Shown in pieces: positions 6,243 through 14,941 of a DNA stretch of 64,000 nt. Within the stretch, counting starts at the first letter, position 1, and every line of letters starts with the position of its first letter. The notes under the pieces were generated by a model. It was not told the origin of the DNA. It made no database searches and saw only the letters and a program-made list of their open reading frames with translations. A program made the position numbers and the translations under genes. Origin of the DNA: Candidatus Binatia bacterium (GTDB lineage: Bacteria; Vulcanimicrobiota; Vulcanimicrobiia; Vulcanimicrobiales; Vulcanimicrobiaceae); assembly GCA_035541935.1 (NCBI GenBank), contig DATKMJ010000068.1, forward strand, positions 1 through 64,000, read 5' to 3'.

Positions 6243-6758
6243 CTAACTCTTTAAACTCTTCCAGACGCGCTGCGGCTCCGGCGGCAGCGCGTCCATGTGT
6301 TTGAGGAAGAGCGTCACCTGCCAGATCTGCCTCTCGTCGAGCGTCTTTCCGAACGACGGCATCCCGGTTAACCGGATGCCGTGTTCGATCTTCCAGTAGG
6401 TTATGCCGTCGGGATCGTCTTCGACGCCGTCCTTCGCGAGCTGCGGCGGATGCTGGTAGAGCCCGCGCGCGATCTTCGAAGGCTGTGCGCCGGCGCCGCC
6501 GTGACAGACCGCGCAGTTCTCGCCGTAGAGGCGAATGCCGGCGACGAGGTTCTCGTCGCTGAGCGGAAGCGGGTTGTCGCCCTTTTGCGCCTCGCGATCG
6601 AGCGTTGCGCGCAGCGATGCGCGCGCCATCCAGCGCTCGAGTTTGGACGGCCGAGCGTCGGCGTTCGCGGGCATGATCCCCGCTTCGATGCCGACGTACG
6701 CGCAGAGCGCGAGCGCGACGAGCGCTGCAACCGCGCCGAGAACAAATCCACGTGCCAT
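6243..6758 (-). CDS. Membrane-anchored c-type cytochrome
   Basis: A 171-residue monohaem cytochrome c. A single N-terminal transmembrane helix (about residues 5-25) acts as uncleaved anchor, followed by the haem-binding CAVCH at residues 82-86 and a distal methionine in GMPSFGKTL, the likely sixth iron ligand. Length and motif order fit class I cytochrome domains (Cytochrome_CBB3-like). It starts 3 bp after the FAD monooxygenase stop and ends a four-gene minus-strand operon, so it may carry electrons for that oxidoreductase in the periplasm, although the flavoprotein itself has no export signal. Confidence 0.85.
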   Translation of the reverse strand: MARGFVLGAVAALVALALCAYVGIEAGIMPANADARPSKLERWMARASLRATLDREAQKGDNPLPLSDENLVAGIRLYGENCAVCHGGAGAQPSKIARGLYQHPPQLAKDGVEDDPDGITYWKIEHGIRLTGMPSFGKTLDERQIWQVTLFLKHMDALPPEPQRVWKSLKS

Positions 6759-6761
6759 GCC

Positions 6762-7967
6762 TTACGCTTCGACGTGCTCGGGACGAAAGCCCAGACCGAC
6801 GAGATGTCCCGGAATGCGCGGCAAGAACGGCAGGAATCGGACGAGCGCCGGCAAGCGGTGAAGGAGCGGCGCGCGTCCGTCGGCGAGCACTCGCCCGATG
6901 ATCCGGCTCTGAATGAAGAGCTGCAGCGCCTGCGTCTTTCGAGCGGCCGATTCCCGGCGGCGCTGCACGCCTTGTAGATCGCGCACGGTCACCGCGCCTT
7001 CGCGCAGGCGCGGCGCGAGCAGGTTCGCCGCGGCGACCGCGTCTTGAACTGCGAGGTTGATGCCGACGCCGCCGATCGGCGACATCGCATGCGCCGCGTC
7101 GCCGATGCAGAGCAGCCCGTCGCGATACCAGCGCCGCAGACGGTTGACGCGCACGGTCAGCAATTTTACCTCGTCCCAACTCGCAATTTCGTTGACGCGC
7201 TCGTGCAGGAACGGCACGATCTCGCTCACCTGCCGCCGGAACTCGATCAATCCCGCCGTCTGCAACTCGGCGAACGTGCCCTTCGGGATGACGTAGGCGC
7301 ACTGCCAATACGCGCCGCGATCTATGAGCGCCATGATCCGGCCGGCGCGGATGTATCCGAAGGTCTCGTGCGGATCGTCGGCGTGCTTCGTGAGGCGCAG
7401 CCAGAGGACGTCCATCGGCGCGCCCAACTCGACGACGTCGAGCCCCGCGTCGCGGCGCAGCACCGATTCGCGCCCATCGGCGGCGATCGTCAACGGCGCG
7501 CGAATCTCGAGCGGACCGTCGGGCGTCTGCGCGCGCACGCCCGCGACGCGGTCGCCATCGAAAAGCAATCCTTCCGCGCGGGCCTGCATGCGCAAATCGA
7601 AGCAGGCAAAGCGCTTCGACTCTTCGGCGAGAAAGTTCAGAAATTCCCACTGCGGCATGAACGCGACGAACTTGCAGCGCGTCGGAAGGTGCGAGAAGTC
7701 GGCGACGGTGATGAGCGCGTCACCAAGATTGCCGGCGAGCGTCGTCACCTCTTGGTGCGGCCGCGCGAGGAACCTTTCAAGCAGCCCCAGTTCGGCCATC
7801 ACTTCCAGCGTCGACGGATGGATCGTGTCGCCGCGAAAATCGCGCAAGAAGTCGGCATGCTTTTCGAGCAGGACGGTTCGCACGCCGGCGCGAGCGAGAA
7901 GCATTCCCGCCATCATACCGGCCGGACCGCCGCCGACGATGCAGCAGCCGGCGCGAATCTCGTTCAC
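6762..7967 (-). CDS. FAD-dependent monooxygenase / oxidoreductase (UbiH-PHBH type)
   Basis: A 401-residue flavoprotein with the Rossmann motif CIVGGGPAGMMAGMLLARAG near residue 10, the acidic end EKH of strand 2, a central DG-type motif (IAADGRESVLR) and GDAAHAMSPIGGVGINLAVQ that binds FAD ribityl, as in the p-hydroxybenzoate hydroxylase/UbiH superfamily. It should hydroxylate or oxidise an aromatic or isoprenoid substrate in the cytosol; the substrate is unknown. The GTG start at 7967 overlaps the TGA of the SRPBCC-like gene (GTGA), a sign of coupled translation. Longer reading through this frame upstream is Arg-rich shadow, not protein. Confidence 0.85.
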   Translation of the reverse strand: MNEIRAGCCIVGGGPAGMMAGMLLARAGVRTVLLEKHADFLRDFRGDTIHPSTLEVMAELGLLERFLARPHQEVTTLAGNLGDALITVADFSHLPTRCKFVAFMPQWEFLNFLAEESKRFACFDLRMQARAEGLLFDGDRVAGVRAQTPDGPLEIRAPLTIAADGRESVLRRDAGLDVVELGAPMDVLWLRLTKHADDPHETFGYIRAGRIMALIDRGAYWQCAYVIPKGTFAELQTAGLIEFRRQVSEIVPFLHERVNEIASWDEVKLLTVRVNRLRRWYRDGLLCIGDAAHAMSPIGGVGINLAVQDAVAAANLLAPRLREGAVTVRDLQGVQRRRESAARKTQALQLFIQSRIIGRVLADGRAPLLHRLPALVRFLPFLPRIPGHLVGLGFRPEHVEA

Positions 7968-8467
7968 GAGAAGGTTCGCGCGTAGAATCGGTAGCGAGCG
8001 AACTCGGCCTCGCGCTGATTGACGCGAGCCTCGCACGCCACGCCGATCTCCTCGACGAAGTTCTCCAGCGACTTCTCGGCGACGCGGGGCAGCATCGCAG
8101 CATCGAGCAGTCTCCCGAAGAAGTGCATCGGCAGCTCGTACTCGCCGCGCAGGGAGAGCGTGCATTCGCCGAGCCCGCGCTCGCCGACGGCGATCGTTCC
8201 CTTGAAGCCGGGAAACGCGGCGGGTAGATTCGACGAGGTAAACGCGATGCCGAATTCGTGGGCACGCTCGCCCTTCGCGACCGTTAACTTGATGGGAACG
8301 GCAACGTAACCCACGTCGGGGAAGTGCAGCTCGCCGAGGCCGACGTGCAGCGCGAATCCGCGCCACGGCCCCTCTTGAGCGGCGATCGCGCCGAGCAGGC
8401 TGCCGAGCGCCTCGGCCGCGGGGCCGGGTGGTATGCGCAACGTTCTGGAGATCTCTACGCTGGCCAT
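7964..8467 (-). CDS. SRPBCC/START-like domain protein
   Basis: A 167-residue protein without signal or membrane segment. It opens with a polyketide-cyclase-like strand (MASVEISRTLRIPP), has alternating strands (GLGELHFPDVGYVAVPIKLTV, GTIAVGERGLGECTLSLRGEYELP) and a long C-terminal helix, the order expected for a START/SRPBCC helix-grip fold that binds hydrophobic ligands. The assignment is by pattern only. The gene lies between a propeller lipoprotein (3 bp upstream) and the FAD monooxygenase (4 bp overlap), so it may bind the flavoprotein's substrate or product. Confidence 0.65.
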   Translation of the reverse strand: MASVEISRTLRIPPGPAAEALGSLLGAIAAQEGPWRGFALHVGLGELHFPDVGYVAVPIKLTVAKGERAHEFGIAFTSSNLPAAFPGFKGTIAVGERGLGECTLSLRGEYELPMHFFGRLLDAAMLPRVAEKSLENFVEEIGVACEARVNQREAEFARYRFYARTFS

Positions 8468-9519: not shown

Positions 9520-9533
9520 TTAGGCGCACCTAA
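9520..9533. promoter_or_regulatory. Palindrome TTAGG-N4-CCTAA abutting start codon
   Basis: The perfect inverted repeat TTAGGCGCACCTAA ends on the base before the ATG of the multicopper oxidase-ZIP gene. TTAGG and CCTAA are the outer arms seen in operators of DtxR/IdeR/MntR-type metal regulators, though those sites usually have a longer spacer. Its place leaves no room for a ribosome site, so it may be an operator over a leaderless start, or it may be coincidence. Confidence 0.4.
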
Positions 9534-11408
9534 ATGAAGCCTCTCCCCGTTCGGCTCGCCTACGCCGCCGGACTTGCGCTGCTCGTCCTCGGCGCGTCCG
9601 CCGGCCGCGCGTTCGCCGATGCCGACGACGCCGCGGCCCGAGCCAGTTCGACGACCGCCGGCCTGCAGCCGATCCGCGGCGCGATTCCGGTCGCGACGCC
9701 GGCGCCCGGCGAGTCGCGCGTCTTCCAGCGTCCCGACGGCGCCTATCAAGCGATCCCAAGCGTGCGCGGGCGCACGAAAATCTTTCACATCGTCGAGCGC
9801 GCGGCACCGTGGACGCTCGTGCCCGGCCTGACGGTGATGGCGAACACGTACAACGGCGTCGTCCCCGGACCGGCGCTCGTCGTAAACCAGGGCGACACGC
9901 TCGAACTCGATTACACGAACGACGAAGCGATGCCGGACTCGATTCACATGCACGGCATCCACGACATCCCGGTGACGATGGACGGCGTAGGCGGCATCTC
10001 GCAGCCGCTCGTCCAGAACGGCCAACACTTCGTCTATCGCTTCGTCGCCAATCAGCCCGGCACGTTCATCTATCACACGCACGACGACGAGGCGATGCTC
10101 GACTCCGGCCTCTACGGCGCGATCGTCGTCTTGCCGTCGCAGCCGGCGGCGAACGAGCGCGGCTTGAGCCGCGATTTTCTCGAGATGATCTCGTCGTGGC
10201 AGATTCAGAGCGCGACCGAGAACCACTTCACGCTCAACGGCAAGGAGTATCCGGCGACGCGCGTGCTCGACGTAAAGGCGGGCGAGCGCTTTCGCATCCG
10301 CTGGATCAACATCTCCGGCGAAGAGTTTCACACCATGCACACGCACGGGCACTACCAGCAGATCATCGCGCGCGACGCGGCCCCGGTGGAGTATCGCGAC
10401 GTCGAGGATACGGTGCTCGTGGCGCCCGGCCAGCGGGTCGACGTCGTCGTCAAAGCCGATGCGAAGCCGGGCACGTGGCTGATCCACTGCCACGTGCTGG
10501 ATCATATCGAAGATGCGAACGGCATGCCGGCCGGGCTCATCACGGCGATCCACTACATCGGCACGCCGAACACGCTGACGTCCATGTATCGCGCGATGCA
10601 GCCGGCAGCGACGACCACGTCGCGCGCGCTCGGCTTCTGGCAGACGGTGCTGCTCGGCGCGATCGCGGGCTTCACGATCTTCCTCGGCCTGCCGATCGCG
10701 CGGGCGCGCCGGCTCTCGCCGCACGCGATCGCGCTGCTCAACGCGCTCGCGATCGGCATCCTGCTCTATCTCGTCGTCGAGATAGCGCAGAACGCGATCG
10801 CGCCGATCGCGCAGGCCTTGACCGCGTGGCACGCCGGGGCGGGCGCATTCCCGTTCGCAATGATTCTCGTCTTTGTTTTGGGGCTCGCAATCGGGTTGGT
10901 CGGTCTCGGCAGCGCGGCGACGGCGTTCACGCGCAAGGCGGCGCAACATGCCGAGAACCCGGTCGTGCTCGCGGCGCTGATCGCGGTGGGCATCGGCGCG
11001 CACAACTTCGGCGAGGGTTTGGCGATCGGGGCGTCGGCTGCCGCGGGCGCGACGGCCGTCGCGCTGGCGCTCATCGTCGGCTTCGGTTTGCACAACGCGA
11101 CGGAAGGCTTCGGCGTCGCGGCGCCGCTGGTCGGACGCGTCGTCCCGAGCTGGGCGCAGATCGGCTTGGCCGGACTGATCGCGGGCGGACCGACCTTCCT
11201 CGGCACGATTATCGGTTACAGCTTCTACTCGCCGACGCTCTCGGTGTTCTTCCTCGCGATCGCCGTCGGCGCGCTCGTCTTCGTGATCGGCGAGCTCTGG
11301 AGCGTGCTGCGGCGCACCGGCCTCACCGCGTTCGTCACCGCGACGATGTGCGCGGGCTTCCTGCTGGCGCTCGCGACCGAGCTCTTCCTCGACATCAACG
11401 GAGGCTGA
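9534..11408 (+). CDS. Multicopper oxidase fused to ZIP-family metal transporter
   Basis: A 624-residue fusion. Residues 1-29 are a Sec signal. Residues about 80-345 form two cupredoxin domains with full copper ligands: HMHGIH (138-143), YHTHDDEA (180-187), HTMHTHGH (266-273) and HCHVLDHIEDANGM (318-331), the last giving a type 1 site with axial Met. This is the two-domain oxidase layout with type 1 copper in domain 2. From 366 there are about seven membrane helices with two ZIP signatures, HNFGEG (490-495) and HNATEG (520-525), whose His and Glu bind transported Zn/Fe/Mn. The oxidase would be periplasmic and joined to the channel. A ferroxidase or cuprous-oxidase role coupled to uptake or efflux is inference. 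A palindrome touches the start, and a barrel gene follows 15 bp after the stop. Confidence 0.9.
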   Translation: MKPLPVRLAYAAGLALLVLGASAGRAFADADDAAARASSTTAGLQPIRGAIPVATPAPGESRVFQRPDGAYQAIPSVRGRTKIFHIVERAAPWTLVPGLTVMANTYNGVVPGPALVVNQGDTLELDYTNDEAMPDSIHMHGIHDIPVTMDGVGGISQPLVQNGQHFVYRFVANQPGTFIYHTHDDEAMLDSGLYGAIVVLPSQPAANERGLSRDFLEMISSWQIQSATENHFTLNGKEYPATRVLDVKAGERFRIRWINISGEEFHTMHTHGHYQQIIARDAAPVEYRDVEDTVLVAPGQRVDVVVKADAKPGTWLIHCHVLDHIEDANGMPAGLITAIHYIGTPNTLTSMYRAMQPAATTTSRALGFWQTVLLGAIAGFTIFLGLPIARARRLSPHAIALLNALAIGILLYLVVEIAQNAIAPIAQALTAWHAGAGAFPFAMILVFVLGLAIGLVGLGSAATAFTRKAAQHAENPVVLAALIAVGIGAHNFGEGLAIGASAAAGATAVALALIVGFGLHNATEGFGVAAPLVGRVVPSWAQIGLAGLIAGGPTFLGTIIGYSFYSPTLSVFFLAIAVGALVFVIGELWSVLRRTGLTAFVTATMCAGFLLALATELFLDINGG

Positions 11409-11422
11409 AGAGCGCCGAAGCA

Positions 11423-12340
11423 GTGGCAAGGCTCGTACCGTTGCCGTGCGTCCTGGCAACGTTCGCGTTCGCCGCGACCGCCGCGCCGGTCGTCGGCCAA
11501 GAGCTCGAGCCGCGATCGTATTCGGCTTCGCCGGTCGATTCAAACTTTGCGATCGGTGCCGTATCGAACTCGACGGGGACGGTGCCGCTCGATCCGTCGC
11601 TGCCGCTCAGCGACGTGCGCCCGGCGATCACGACCGCCGCCCTGAGCTTTACGCACACGTTCCGTCTCGGAAATCGCACGGCAAACTGGGCCGTTAGCGT
11701 TCCCTACCTCGGCGGCCACGTCAGCGCGGTCTTCTCGGGGCAGCCCGAAGCGTTCTCGCGCTACGGATTCGCGGATTTCCGAGGTCGTTTGGGCGTCAAT
11801 CTCCTCGGTCGAGCGATGACGCCGGCGGAGTTTGCACGGCGCAAACCGAGCACGACGCTTGGGGTCAGCGTCACCGTTATCATGCCGACGGGCACGTACG
11901 ACCGGACCTCGCTCATCAACGTCGGCTCGAACCGCTGGACGTTCAAGCCGGAGGTCGGCGTGGAGCAGCCCATGGGCAAGTGGTTCACCGACCTCTCCGC
12001 CGGCGTGTGGATCTTCGGCGAGAACACCGACTACTTCGGCGGCCGGGTGCTCCGGCAAGCGGCGCTCGACATCTTCCAATTTCACGTCGGGTATGTCTTT
12101 CGTCAGAACCAGTGGCTCGCGCTCGACGGGAACTACTATTCGGGAGGCGCCACCAGCGCCGGAGGAGCCACGCCGATCGATTCGCTCGACAACTCGCGCT
12201 ATGGACTGACCTTTTCGCAACCGGTCGGATCGGGCTTATCGGCGAAAGTTTCCTGGTCGCGCTGGCTGAGCGGCAGATTCGGACAGAAGTTCTCCACGCT
12301 TGGCGCCGCCCTTCAATATCTTTGGTTCAACGGAGACTGA
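11423..12340 (+). CDS. Outer-membrane beta-barrel (transporter / phenol-MetA-like)
   Basis: About 305 residues with a Sec signal (LATFAFAATAAPVVGQ) and a run of amphipathic beta strands: AITTAALSFTHTFRL, WAVSVPYLGGHV, LGVSVTVIMPTGTY, WTFKPEVGVEQPMG, FQFHVGYVF, GLTFSQPVGSGLSAKVSWSRWL and a C-terminal LGAALQYLWF. This is the pattern of the MetA-pathway-of-phenol-degradation/transporter family of outer-membrane barrels. The start is uncertain: GTG at 11423 is used, with GGAGG 19 bases upstream; a CTG at 11405 would have better spacing. It follows the oxidase-ZIP gene by 15 bp, so it is probably co-transcribed and may let metal or ligand across the outer membrane. Confidence 0.75.
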   Translation: MARLVPLPCVLATFAFAATAAPVVGQELEPRSYSASPVDSNFAIGAVSNSTGTVPLDPSLPLSDVRPAITTAALSFTHTFRLGNRTANWAVSVPYLGGHVSAVFSGQPEAFSRYGFADFRGRLGVNLLGRAMTPAEFARRKPSTTLGVSVTVIMPTGTYDRTSLINVGSNRWTFKPEVGVEQPMGKWFTDLSAGVWIFGENTDYFGGRVLRQAALDIFQFHVGYVFRQNQWLALDGNYYSGGATSAGGATPIDSLDNSRYGLTFSQPVGSGLSAKVSWSRWLSGRFGQKFSTLGAALQYLWFNGD

Positions 12341-13531: not shown

Positions 13532-14941
13532 ATGCCCCTGCACAGGCGAGTACACCCGAGCGATTCCGGCACGACCGACGTCTACGCGACCCGGGCTATG
13601 GACGCGACGATCCCCAAACATCGCGTGCCCGAAGAGGGCTTACGCCCGGATGTAGCGCTGCAGCTGGTCGTTGACGAACTGATGCTCGACGGCAACGCTC
13701 GGCAAAACCTCGCTACGTTTTGCCAGACGTGGTTCGACGACGGGATCCACAAGCTCATGGATCTCAGCCTCGACAAGAACATGATCGACAAAGACGAGTA
13801 CCCGGCGACGGCTGAGATTGAAAGCCGCTGCGTGCACTTGCTGGCGCATCTCTGGAACTCGCCGGCGGCCGGAACGACGATCGGATGCTCGACGACCGGC
13901 TCGAGCGAGGCCGCGATGCTCGGCGGCCTCGCCCTCAAATGGAAATGGCGCGAGCGTCGCGCCAGGCTGGGCAAGTCCACCGACAAGCCGAACATGATCA
14001 CCGGTCCCGTGCAGGTCTGTTGGCACAAGTTCGCGCGCTACTTCGACGTCGAGCTGCGGGAGGTTCCGCTGGAGCGCGATCGCCTGATCATGACGCCGGA
14101 CGAAGTCGTCAAGCGCGTCGACGAAAACACGATCGGCGTCGTGCCGACCTTCGGCGTCACCTTCACCGGTCATTACGAACCGGTGGCGCAAATTTCCGAG
14201 GCGCTCGACGCACTCGAACGGAAGACCGGGCTCGACATCCCGATCCACGTGGACGCTGCCTCCGGCGGATTCATCGCGCCGTTCGTCGAGCCGGAGATCC
14301 TATGGGATTTTCGCTTGCCGCGCGTGCGTTCGATCAACGCATCGGGGCATAAATTCGGACTCGCGCCCCTGGGCGTCGGGTGGGTGATTTGGCGCGAAGC
14401 GAGCGACCTGCCCGAAGGGCTCGTCTTCCACGTCAACTACCTCGGCGGCGACATGCCGACGTTCGCACTGAACTTCTCTCGGCCGGGCGGGCAGGTCATC
14501 TGCCAATACTACTTGATGCTGCGCCTCGGCATGGAAGGCTACCGGCGCATCCATCAAAACTGTTACGACATCGCACAGCGTGTGGCTCGCCGGATTGCCG
14601 CGTTCGGCCCGTTCGACGTGCTCTTCGACGGCGCCAGCCGCAACGGAATCCCGGCGGTATCCTGGACGATGCGCGAAGCTGCGGGATATTCGCTCTTCGA
14701 TCTCTCCGATCGACTGCGTGCGCGCGGCTGGCAGGTCGCGGCGTACACGATGATCCCCAACATCGCCGACATGGCCGTGATGCGCGTGCTGATTCGACAC
14801 GGCTTTAGCCTCGACTCCGCCGACGCGCTGCTCGAAGACGTGCGCCGGTCTTTGGAGTACTTCAAGACGCATCCCCAATCCAACCCGATGACCGCCGAAG
14901 AAGGCGCCTCGCACGATCACCACGCACGCGTTACGGCATAG
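13532..14941 (+). CDS. gadB: Glutamate decarboxylase
   Basis: A 469-residue PLP enzyme, the usual GadA/GadB length, that converts glutamate to GABA plus CO2 and consumes a proton. Family landmarks are present: [64 protein letters not shown] and the PLP lysine in [16 protein letters not shown]. The C-terminal end differs from the E. coli autoinhibitory tail but is His-rich (DHHARV). No GadC antiporter is near, so acid resistance by the glutamate system is only suggested; two HdeD acid-stress proteins lie 6-10 kb downstream. The N-terminus lines up with known Gad starts (MxLHxxxx), which supports this ATG. Confidence 0.93.

Follow-up and report, generated by a model that had tools for sequence, protein, structure and literature searches.

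What a periplasmic copper oxidase might do when it is made as one polypeptide with a metal transporter, and which metal such a pair would handle, is the question raised by a gene at 9534..11408 on the plus strand of the window, the whole stretch of 64,000 nucleotides analysed here. The single continuous frame joining a periplasmic multicopper oxidase (MCO) to a ZIP domain, first noticed in a sequence-only reading, is real: the ORF is open from its ATG to the stop and encodes 624 amino acids. A hydrophobic stretch at residues 1-30 holds a predicted signal peptide (residues 1-28; 9534..9617, +) whose cleavage point, after GRAFA and before DADD, was placed by eye. Cupredoxin domain 1, residues 100-202 (9831..10139, +; PF07732, Cu-oxidase_3, E 7.5e-28), carries the trinuclear-site ligands HMH and HTH and is without a T1 cysteine, and domain 2, at about residues 228-341 (10215..10556, +; PF07731, Cu-oxidase_2, E 6.7e-28, the match lying at 228-326), supplies the T1 copper site through HTMHTH and HCHxxxH. 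There follows an oxidase-ZIP linker of 22 residues (346-367; 10569..10634, +) that is Met-rich across the fusion family (methionine content 13.5% versus 2.6% overall), and then the ZIP domain of 257 residues (10635..11405, +) with eight predicted transmembrane (TM) helices, HNFGEG at 11001-11018 and HNATEG at 11091-11108. The quoted motifs lie where they had been placed, HMH at 138/140, HTH at 181/183, H266-H269-H271, HCH at 318-320, H324, HNFGEG at 490-495 and HNATEG at 520-525, and the description of the copper ligands as complete holds for all except the axial methionine, M331 being kept in just 39 of 54 fusions. Otherwise the copper and ZIP ligands are invariant across these 54 distinct homologous fusions, with a Q at H318 as the lone exception. 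An AlphaFold model of the fusion, built from a shallow alignment of loci, has a pLDDT of 48.

With HMH and YHTH and no cysteine in domain 1, and HTMHTH and HCHVLDH in domain 2, T1 copper is confined to domain 2, and so by the scheme of PMC13151041 the oxidase is, on its motifs, a type B two-domain MCO, with four HxH pairs and the T1 Cys/His in domain 2 alone. From the SLAC/CjMCO type B two-domain enzymes (PMC13151041) it differs by its attached membrane transporter and unconserved axial methionine. In the best PDB sequence match of the MCO, 2zwn, the HCH cysteine belongs to domain 1, and so that protein is not of the same MCO type.

Membership of the membrane half in the ZIP family needed more care. 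The fusion protein matches Pfam Zip (PF02535) at E 5.4e-5, under the gathering cut-off, and the ZIP half alone, compared with NCBIfam, matches ZupT at E 7.1e-11, below the equivalog cut-off. A 34-sequence profile nevertheless matches the BbZIP structures in the PDB (5tsa at E 4e-9 and 8j1m at E 9e-10), and PF02535 is matched by all 34 of the profile members. The proposal that a membrane half with HNxxEG signatures would be a ZIP is borne out by these structures, matched via the sequence profile, and by family it is a ZupT/GufA-type ZIP (SLC39). The ZIP half aligns over its full length with BbZIP and ZupT, both GufA-type, and shares with them the two HNxxEG signatures and eight TM helices; the fusion differs from them by its N-terminal periplasmic oxidase and by scores under the curated Pfam and NCBIfam cut-offs. 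H490, N491 and E494 in TM4 and H520, N521 and E524 in TM5 are invariant in the 54 fusions, and acidic residues in TM2 (E or D) and TM7 are kept in 54 of 54. Eight helices are found both by hydropathy and in the low-confidence AlphaFold model, and restriction of K/R to the odd loops points to an N-out/C-out topology and so to a periplasmic location for the oxidase. ZupT-type ZIPs are broad in the metals they take, and ZIPs are importers as a rule. No full ZIP match other than the fusion occurs in the window's genus, where one genome has a separate weak match.

A domain search across genomes, which had been suggested along with the sequence-only reading, showed the fusion to be common. The sample was 149 genomes of the phylum, 117 from the window's class, widespread uncultured soil bacteria of the Eremiobacterota, and 32 from outside it. 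Of the 117, 65 carry a full-length fusion; another 11 copies are partial, being either split or cut off by the end of a contig. No full-length fusion was seen in the 32 phylum genomes outside the class. Among class genomes identity ranges from 84% down to about 44%. That the fusion is an assembly artefact was ruled out by many independent assemblies, including contigs of >1.9 Mb. Two relatives, L078 (2826-4049) and L079, have a single TM tail replacing ZIP, and as they are nested within the fusion clade, ZIP was probably lost there.

A pointer to the metal comes from the DNA just 5′ of the gene. An operator-like palindrome, TTAGGCGCACCTAA (TTAGG-N4-CCTAA; 9520..9533, +), ends at the base preceding the ATG. 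The DtxR/IdeR iron box is TTAGGTTAGSCTAACCTAA, positions 1-14 of which are TTAGG-N4-SCTAA (PMC10317159), and so the window site equals one IdeR/DtxR dimer half, just one of the two IdeR dimer sites being present at 9520-9533. Among fusion relatives the five-base arms of the site are conserved and the N4 is variable. An exact site was tallied in 42 of about 60 fusion genomes, and several others differ from it at a single position. Counted over 47 fusion loci (0.4 Mb), exact sites number 30, where mononucleotide shuffling predicts 0.2, and all 30 are upstream of the fusion or its operonic regulator; the whole 2.41 Mb of the window genome has two.

The operonic regulator is found in a sister family, f3, where in 10 of the f3 loci read the fusion is directly 3′ of a DtxR-family gene (PF01325, PF02742 and FeoA); in those f3 loci that have the site, TTAGG-N4-CCTAA is placed upstream of the DtxR-family gene instead. 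Met10 and Cys102 as primary-site ligands distinguish iron-type DtxR members from manganese-type ones (PMC10317159), and the operonic f3 regulators have the iron-type pair (EMY, AEAC), as read by a simple pattern that left one or both positions unread in three rows. Two DtxR-family members are encoded in the window genome: C39, which is iron-type, with EMY and AEAC, and C65, which is manganese-type. The C39 protein is the closer to the f3 operonic regulator (45% identical versus 34%), and its gene adjoins one for adenosine deaminase, the same neighbour as in f3; the C65 gene stands before an NRAMP/MntH gene. Together these features suggest that the fusion gene is under iron-type DtxR/IdeR regulation, with the iron-type regulator presumably contacting the operator.

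Of the dedicated iron importers, FeoB (PF07664) is absent from every class genome searched and present in 27 of the 32 phylum genomes outside the class, and FTR1 occurs in 0 of 147 genomes. The FeoB pattern comes down to a single contrast between clades, so that one event could account for it, and some class genomes are without both the fusion and FeoB. The reading that fits best, to which we give a probability of about 0.5, is that the protein is an iron-regulated, single-chain importer of the inner membrane with a tethered oxidase, Fet3/Ftr1-like in its working and unrelated to Ftr1. The type B two-domain MCO would fold in the periplasm and presumably has to form a trimer to complete its trinuclear copper site. 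The short Met-rich linker would tie it to the N-out/C-out ZIP domain, and this domain would bring in a divalent transition metal, iron being the likeliest. An iron-type DtxR/IdeR regulator at TTAGG-N4-CCTAA would repress the gene, and the product would then be made under iron scarcity. Using O2, the MCO would oxidise metal where the ZIP pore opens; the metal would be either Fe(II) or Cu(I), the latter a poison for the pore if left unoxidised, and oxidation may be coupled to uptake, as in Fet3/Ftr1. Iron as the metal is read here from the regulation; import as the direction, the substrate of the oxidase and the coupling are likewise parts of the proposal.

The protein had been likened to a single-chain counterpart of the yeast Fet3-Ftr1 pair. 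The oxidase-permease analogy stands, with new evidence from the iron-type DtxR operator and regulator, but the permease is not of the FTR1 family. As with Fet3-Ftr1 and bacterial FTR1/EfeU, an MCO would be functionally joined to a metal permease under iron-responsive control; the differences from Fet3-Ftr1 are that a ZIP takes the place of FTR1 and that the join is covalent. Fet3 is itself a three-domain monomer. Against the iron reading, ZIPs usually carry M(II) ions, and so an Fe(III)-making oxidase alongside would bring no obvious gain. The standing guess that two-domain MCOs and ZIP permeases cooperate can here be tested on one polypeptide: with a covalent link between oxidase and pore, and iron-type regulation evident in the DNA, a single gene is enough for testing both the identity of the metal and the coupling of oxidation to transport. 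The fusion could also explain how a widespread class of soil bacteria obtains its iron in the absence of both FeoB and FTR1.

Related arrangements outside the class bear on the choice of metal, and MCO/ZIP gene neighbours are spread over several phyla. Adjacent MCO and ZIP genes in that order, often beside a ‘metal-dependent transcriptional regulator’, are present on plasmids of Arthrobacter FB24 (whose MCO is PDB 3GDC, E 1e-204), Rhodococcus WAY2, Rubrobacter, Salarchaeum and Deinococcus QL22, the QL22 operon having TTAGGCAGACCTAA 61 nt upstream of the MCO start; in Chroococcidiopsis, Pseudanabaena and Rhodococcus qingshengii the MCO/ZIP pair has no annotated regulator of the metal-dependent kind adjoining. 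The DtxR-MCO-ZIP operons of Arthrobacter, Rhodococcus, Deinococcus QL22 and haloarchaea resemble the fusion in combining a two-domain MCO with a ZIP, often with a DtxR-family regulator adjoining. However, the plasmid operons have two genes, their MCOs are of type C (T1 in domain 1) and their regulators are Mn-type, and their ZIPs form a clade separate from the fusion ZIPs and have an extra N-terminal region. The type C oxidases and separate ZIP clade imply that MCO/ZIP pairing arose, or was rebuilt, more than once. A protein in the reverse order, ZIP then MCO, is encoded on a plasmid of Deinococcus sp. KNUC1210 (WP_239052023.1), and this order fits the N-out/C-out topology of the ZIP; the survey for this reverse order covered plasmids. 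In Rhizobiales and Leifsonia a DUF4396 membrane domain is fused to a type B two-domain MCO (L088:3894-5852, L090:3026-4873), and in Mesorhizobium the gene adjoins cueR, dmeF and a cytochrome c gene. Like the fusion, the KNUC1210 and DUF4396-MCO proteins join a type B MCO to a polytopic membrane domain; they differ in that this domain is N-terminal and the loci are concerned with metal resistance or copper, and DUF4396 is not a ZIP.

The main rival to iron is copper, which we consider unlikely though deserving of attention. The MCO would then be a cuprous oxidase whose partner ZIP takes up a divalent ion, Cu(II) or some other; alternatively, the oxidase would shield the pore from toxic Cu(I). 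The methionine-rich linker fits Cu(I), the KNUC1210 reverse fusion is near copper and cation P-type ATPases, and the DUF4396-MCO gene is near cueR. In the ammonia-oxidising archaeon Nitrososphaera viennensis the adjacent genes for a two-domain MCO and a ZIP-permease (NVIE_000600/000590) are both raised under copper limitation, and a Fet3-like copper scheme has already been proposed for this adjacent MCO/ZIP pair (PMC7785015). The paired-gene idea is to that extent known for archaea; no report of an MCO-ZIP fusion or its iron regulon was found in the open-access literature searched. Within the window's class, though, operator and regulator are iron-type, and neither a copper regulator nor a copper exporter is seen beside the fusion within the window. 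A role in handling manganese (or zinc), in which the ZIP imports Mn(II) and the MCO either oxidises this ion or gives protection from it, is decidedly doubtful. It draws on the inclusion of MntR in the DtxR family, MntR forms being among the nearest NCBIfam models of the regulators (all below cut-off), on the Mn-type ligands (Asp/Glu) in regulators of MCO-ZIP gene pairs in Deinococcus, haloarchaea and Rhodococcus, and on the breadth of ZupT-type ZIPs, but the window genome has its distinct Mn-type regulator before NRAMP/MntH and the sister-family operonic regulator has Met/Cys.

If the oxidase were laccase-like, or a quinol or electron-chain oxidase, the ZIP could be a mere membrane anchor. 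The single TM tail of L078 and L079 shows that the MCO can do without a ZIP, and slow laccase activity is described for type B two-domain MCOs, CjMCO among them (PMC13151041), but an anchor has no need of metal ligands, and retention of both HNxxEG signatures and the TM2 and TM7 acids by all 54 fusions makes this improbable. Efflux or detoxification, in which oxidase and ZIP would jointly lower periplasmic or cytoplasmic metal, is very improbable. The Deinococcus reverse fusion does lie within a metal-resistance island (CDF, ArsR/SmtB and the P-type ATPases mentioned), in which no operator of the TTAGG-N4-CCTAA type was found at the fusion locus, but ZIPs generally import, and with a DtxR-type box over its start the gene looks like one that is repressed at high metal, as uptake genes are.

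The second exact TTAGG-N4-CCTAA in the window genome precedes a gene for a Cyc2-like monoheme cytochrome-porin, a candidate outer-membrane protein (G000:C37:50636-51776; L092:1501-2644). Cyc2 is recognized by AXPXFAR[Q/K][T/Y], one CXXCH, PXL and a length of at least 365 amino acids (PMC8406198); the 371 amino acid protein has one CXXCH (CEKCH), PHL and AIPLFAHQY, one residue off through R to H, and relatives with an exact AxPxFARQY exist (L124). Its AlphaFold model, from one sequence, has a pLDDT of 32. An exact site is just upstream in 23 of 30 Cyc2-like loci, and in a few genomes (G072, G086, G124) the Cyc2-like gene is beside the fusion. Among the 117 class genomes 32 have both, 44 the fusion only, 20 the Cyc2-like gene only and 21 neither (Fisher p = 0.56). 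Given this lack of association we read the Cyc2-like protein as belonging to an iron regulon along with the fusion and not as a fixed partner; the two as obligate partners were ruled out. No Cyc2-like homologues were found on plasmids. A bolder version of the iron reading would have the fusion as the main ferrous-iron importer of a class that lost FeoB or never possessed it, an O2-driven single-chain ferroxidase-ZIP coupling the oxidation of Fe(II) to its entry and working with the co-regulated outer-membrane Cyc2-like cytochrome-porin, so that Cyc2-type iron oxidation would serve iron assimilation over energy gain; this is quite unlikely. Nevertheless, the presence of a Cyc2-like protein, commonly read as a marker of iron-oxidizing energy metabolism, under an iron-uptake-type operator calls for caution with marker-based claims. 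The class in which Cyc2-like genes have this iron-regulated type of site is not one known for living by iron oxidation.

Other genes near the fusion merit brief mention. The gene starting 14 nt past the fusion stop (11423..12340, +) encodes an outer-membrane barrel of the Phenol_MetA_deg family (PF13557, E 1.4e-13). The suggestion that it completes a trans-envelope metal system was not upheld, as no homologue is beside the fusion in any related locus compared. Upstream on the minus strand, at 6243-8467 of the window, is a block of cytochrome c, FAD-monooxygenase and hypothetical genes that is kept near the fusion in several same-genus genomes and not beyond. Further downstream, at 13532-14941 (+), a glutamate decarboxylase is encoded (TIGR01788, E 4e-189), possibly for acid resistance.

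In many genomes of the Eremiobacterota (G016:C13, G020:C74, G023:C50, G029:C40, G030:C263, G096:C33, G100:C5 and others) a second, distant cytochrome-porin, about 30% identical, is encoded at most 2 kb from a multicopper oxidase paralogue. Extra copies of TTAGG-N4-CCTAA also occur near other genes, here named by sequence reading: in two genomes (L104, L106) one is between a HiPIP-like gene and that for a 150 amino acid membrane protein, and in one genome (L105, position 1501) one precedes the gene for a TonB-dependent receptor.
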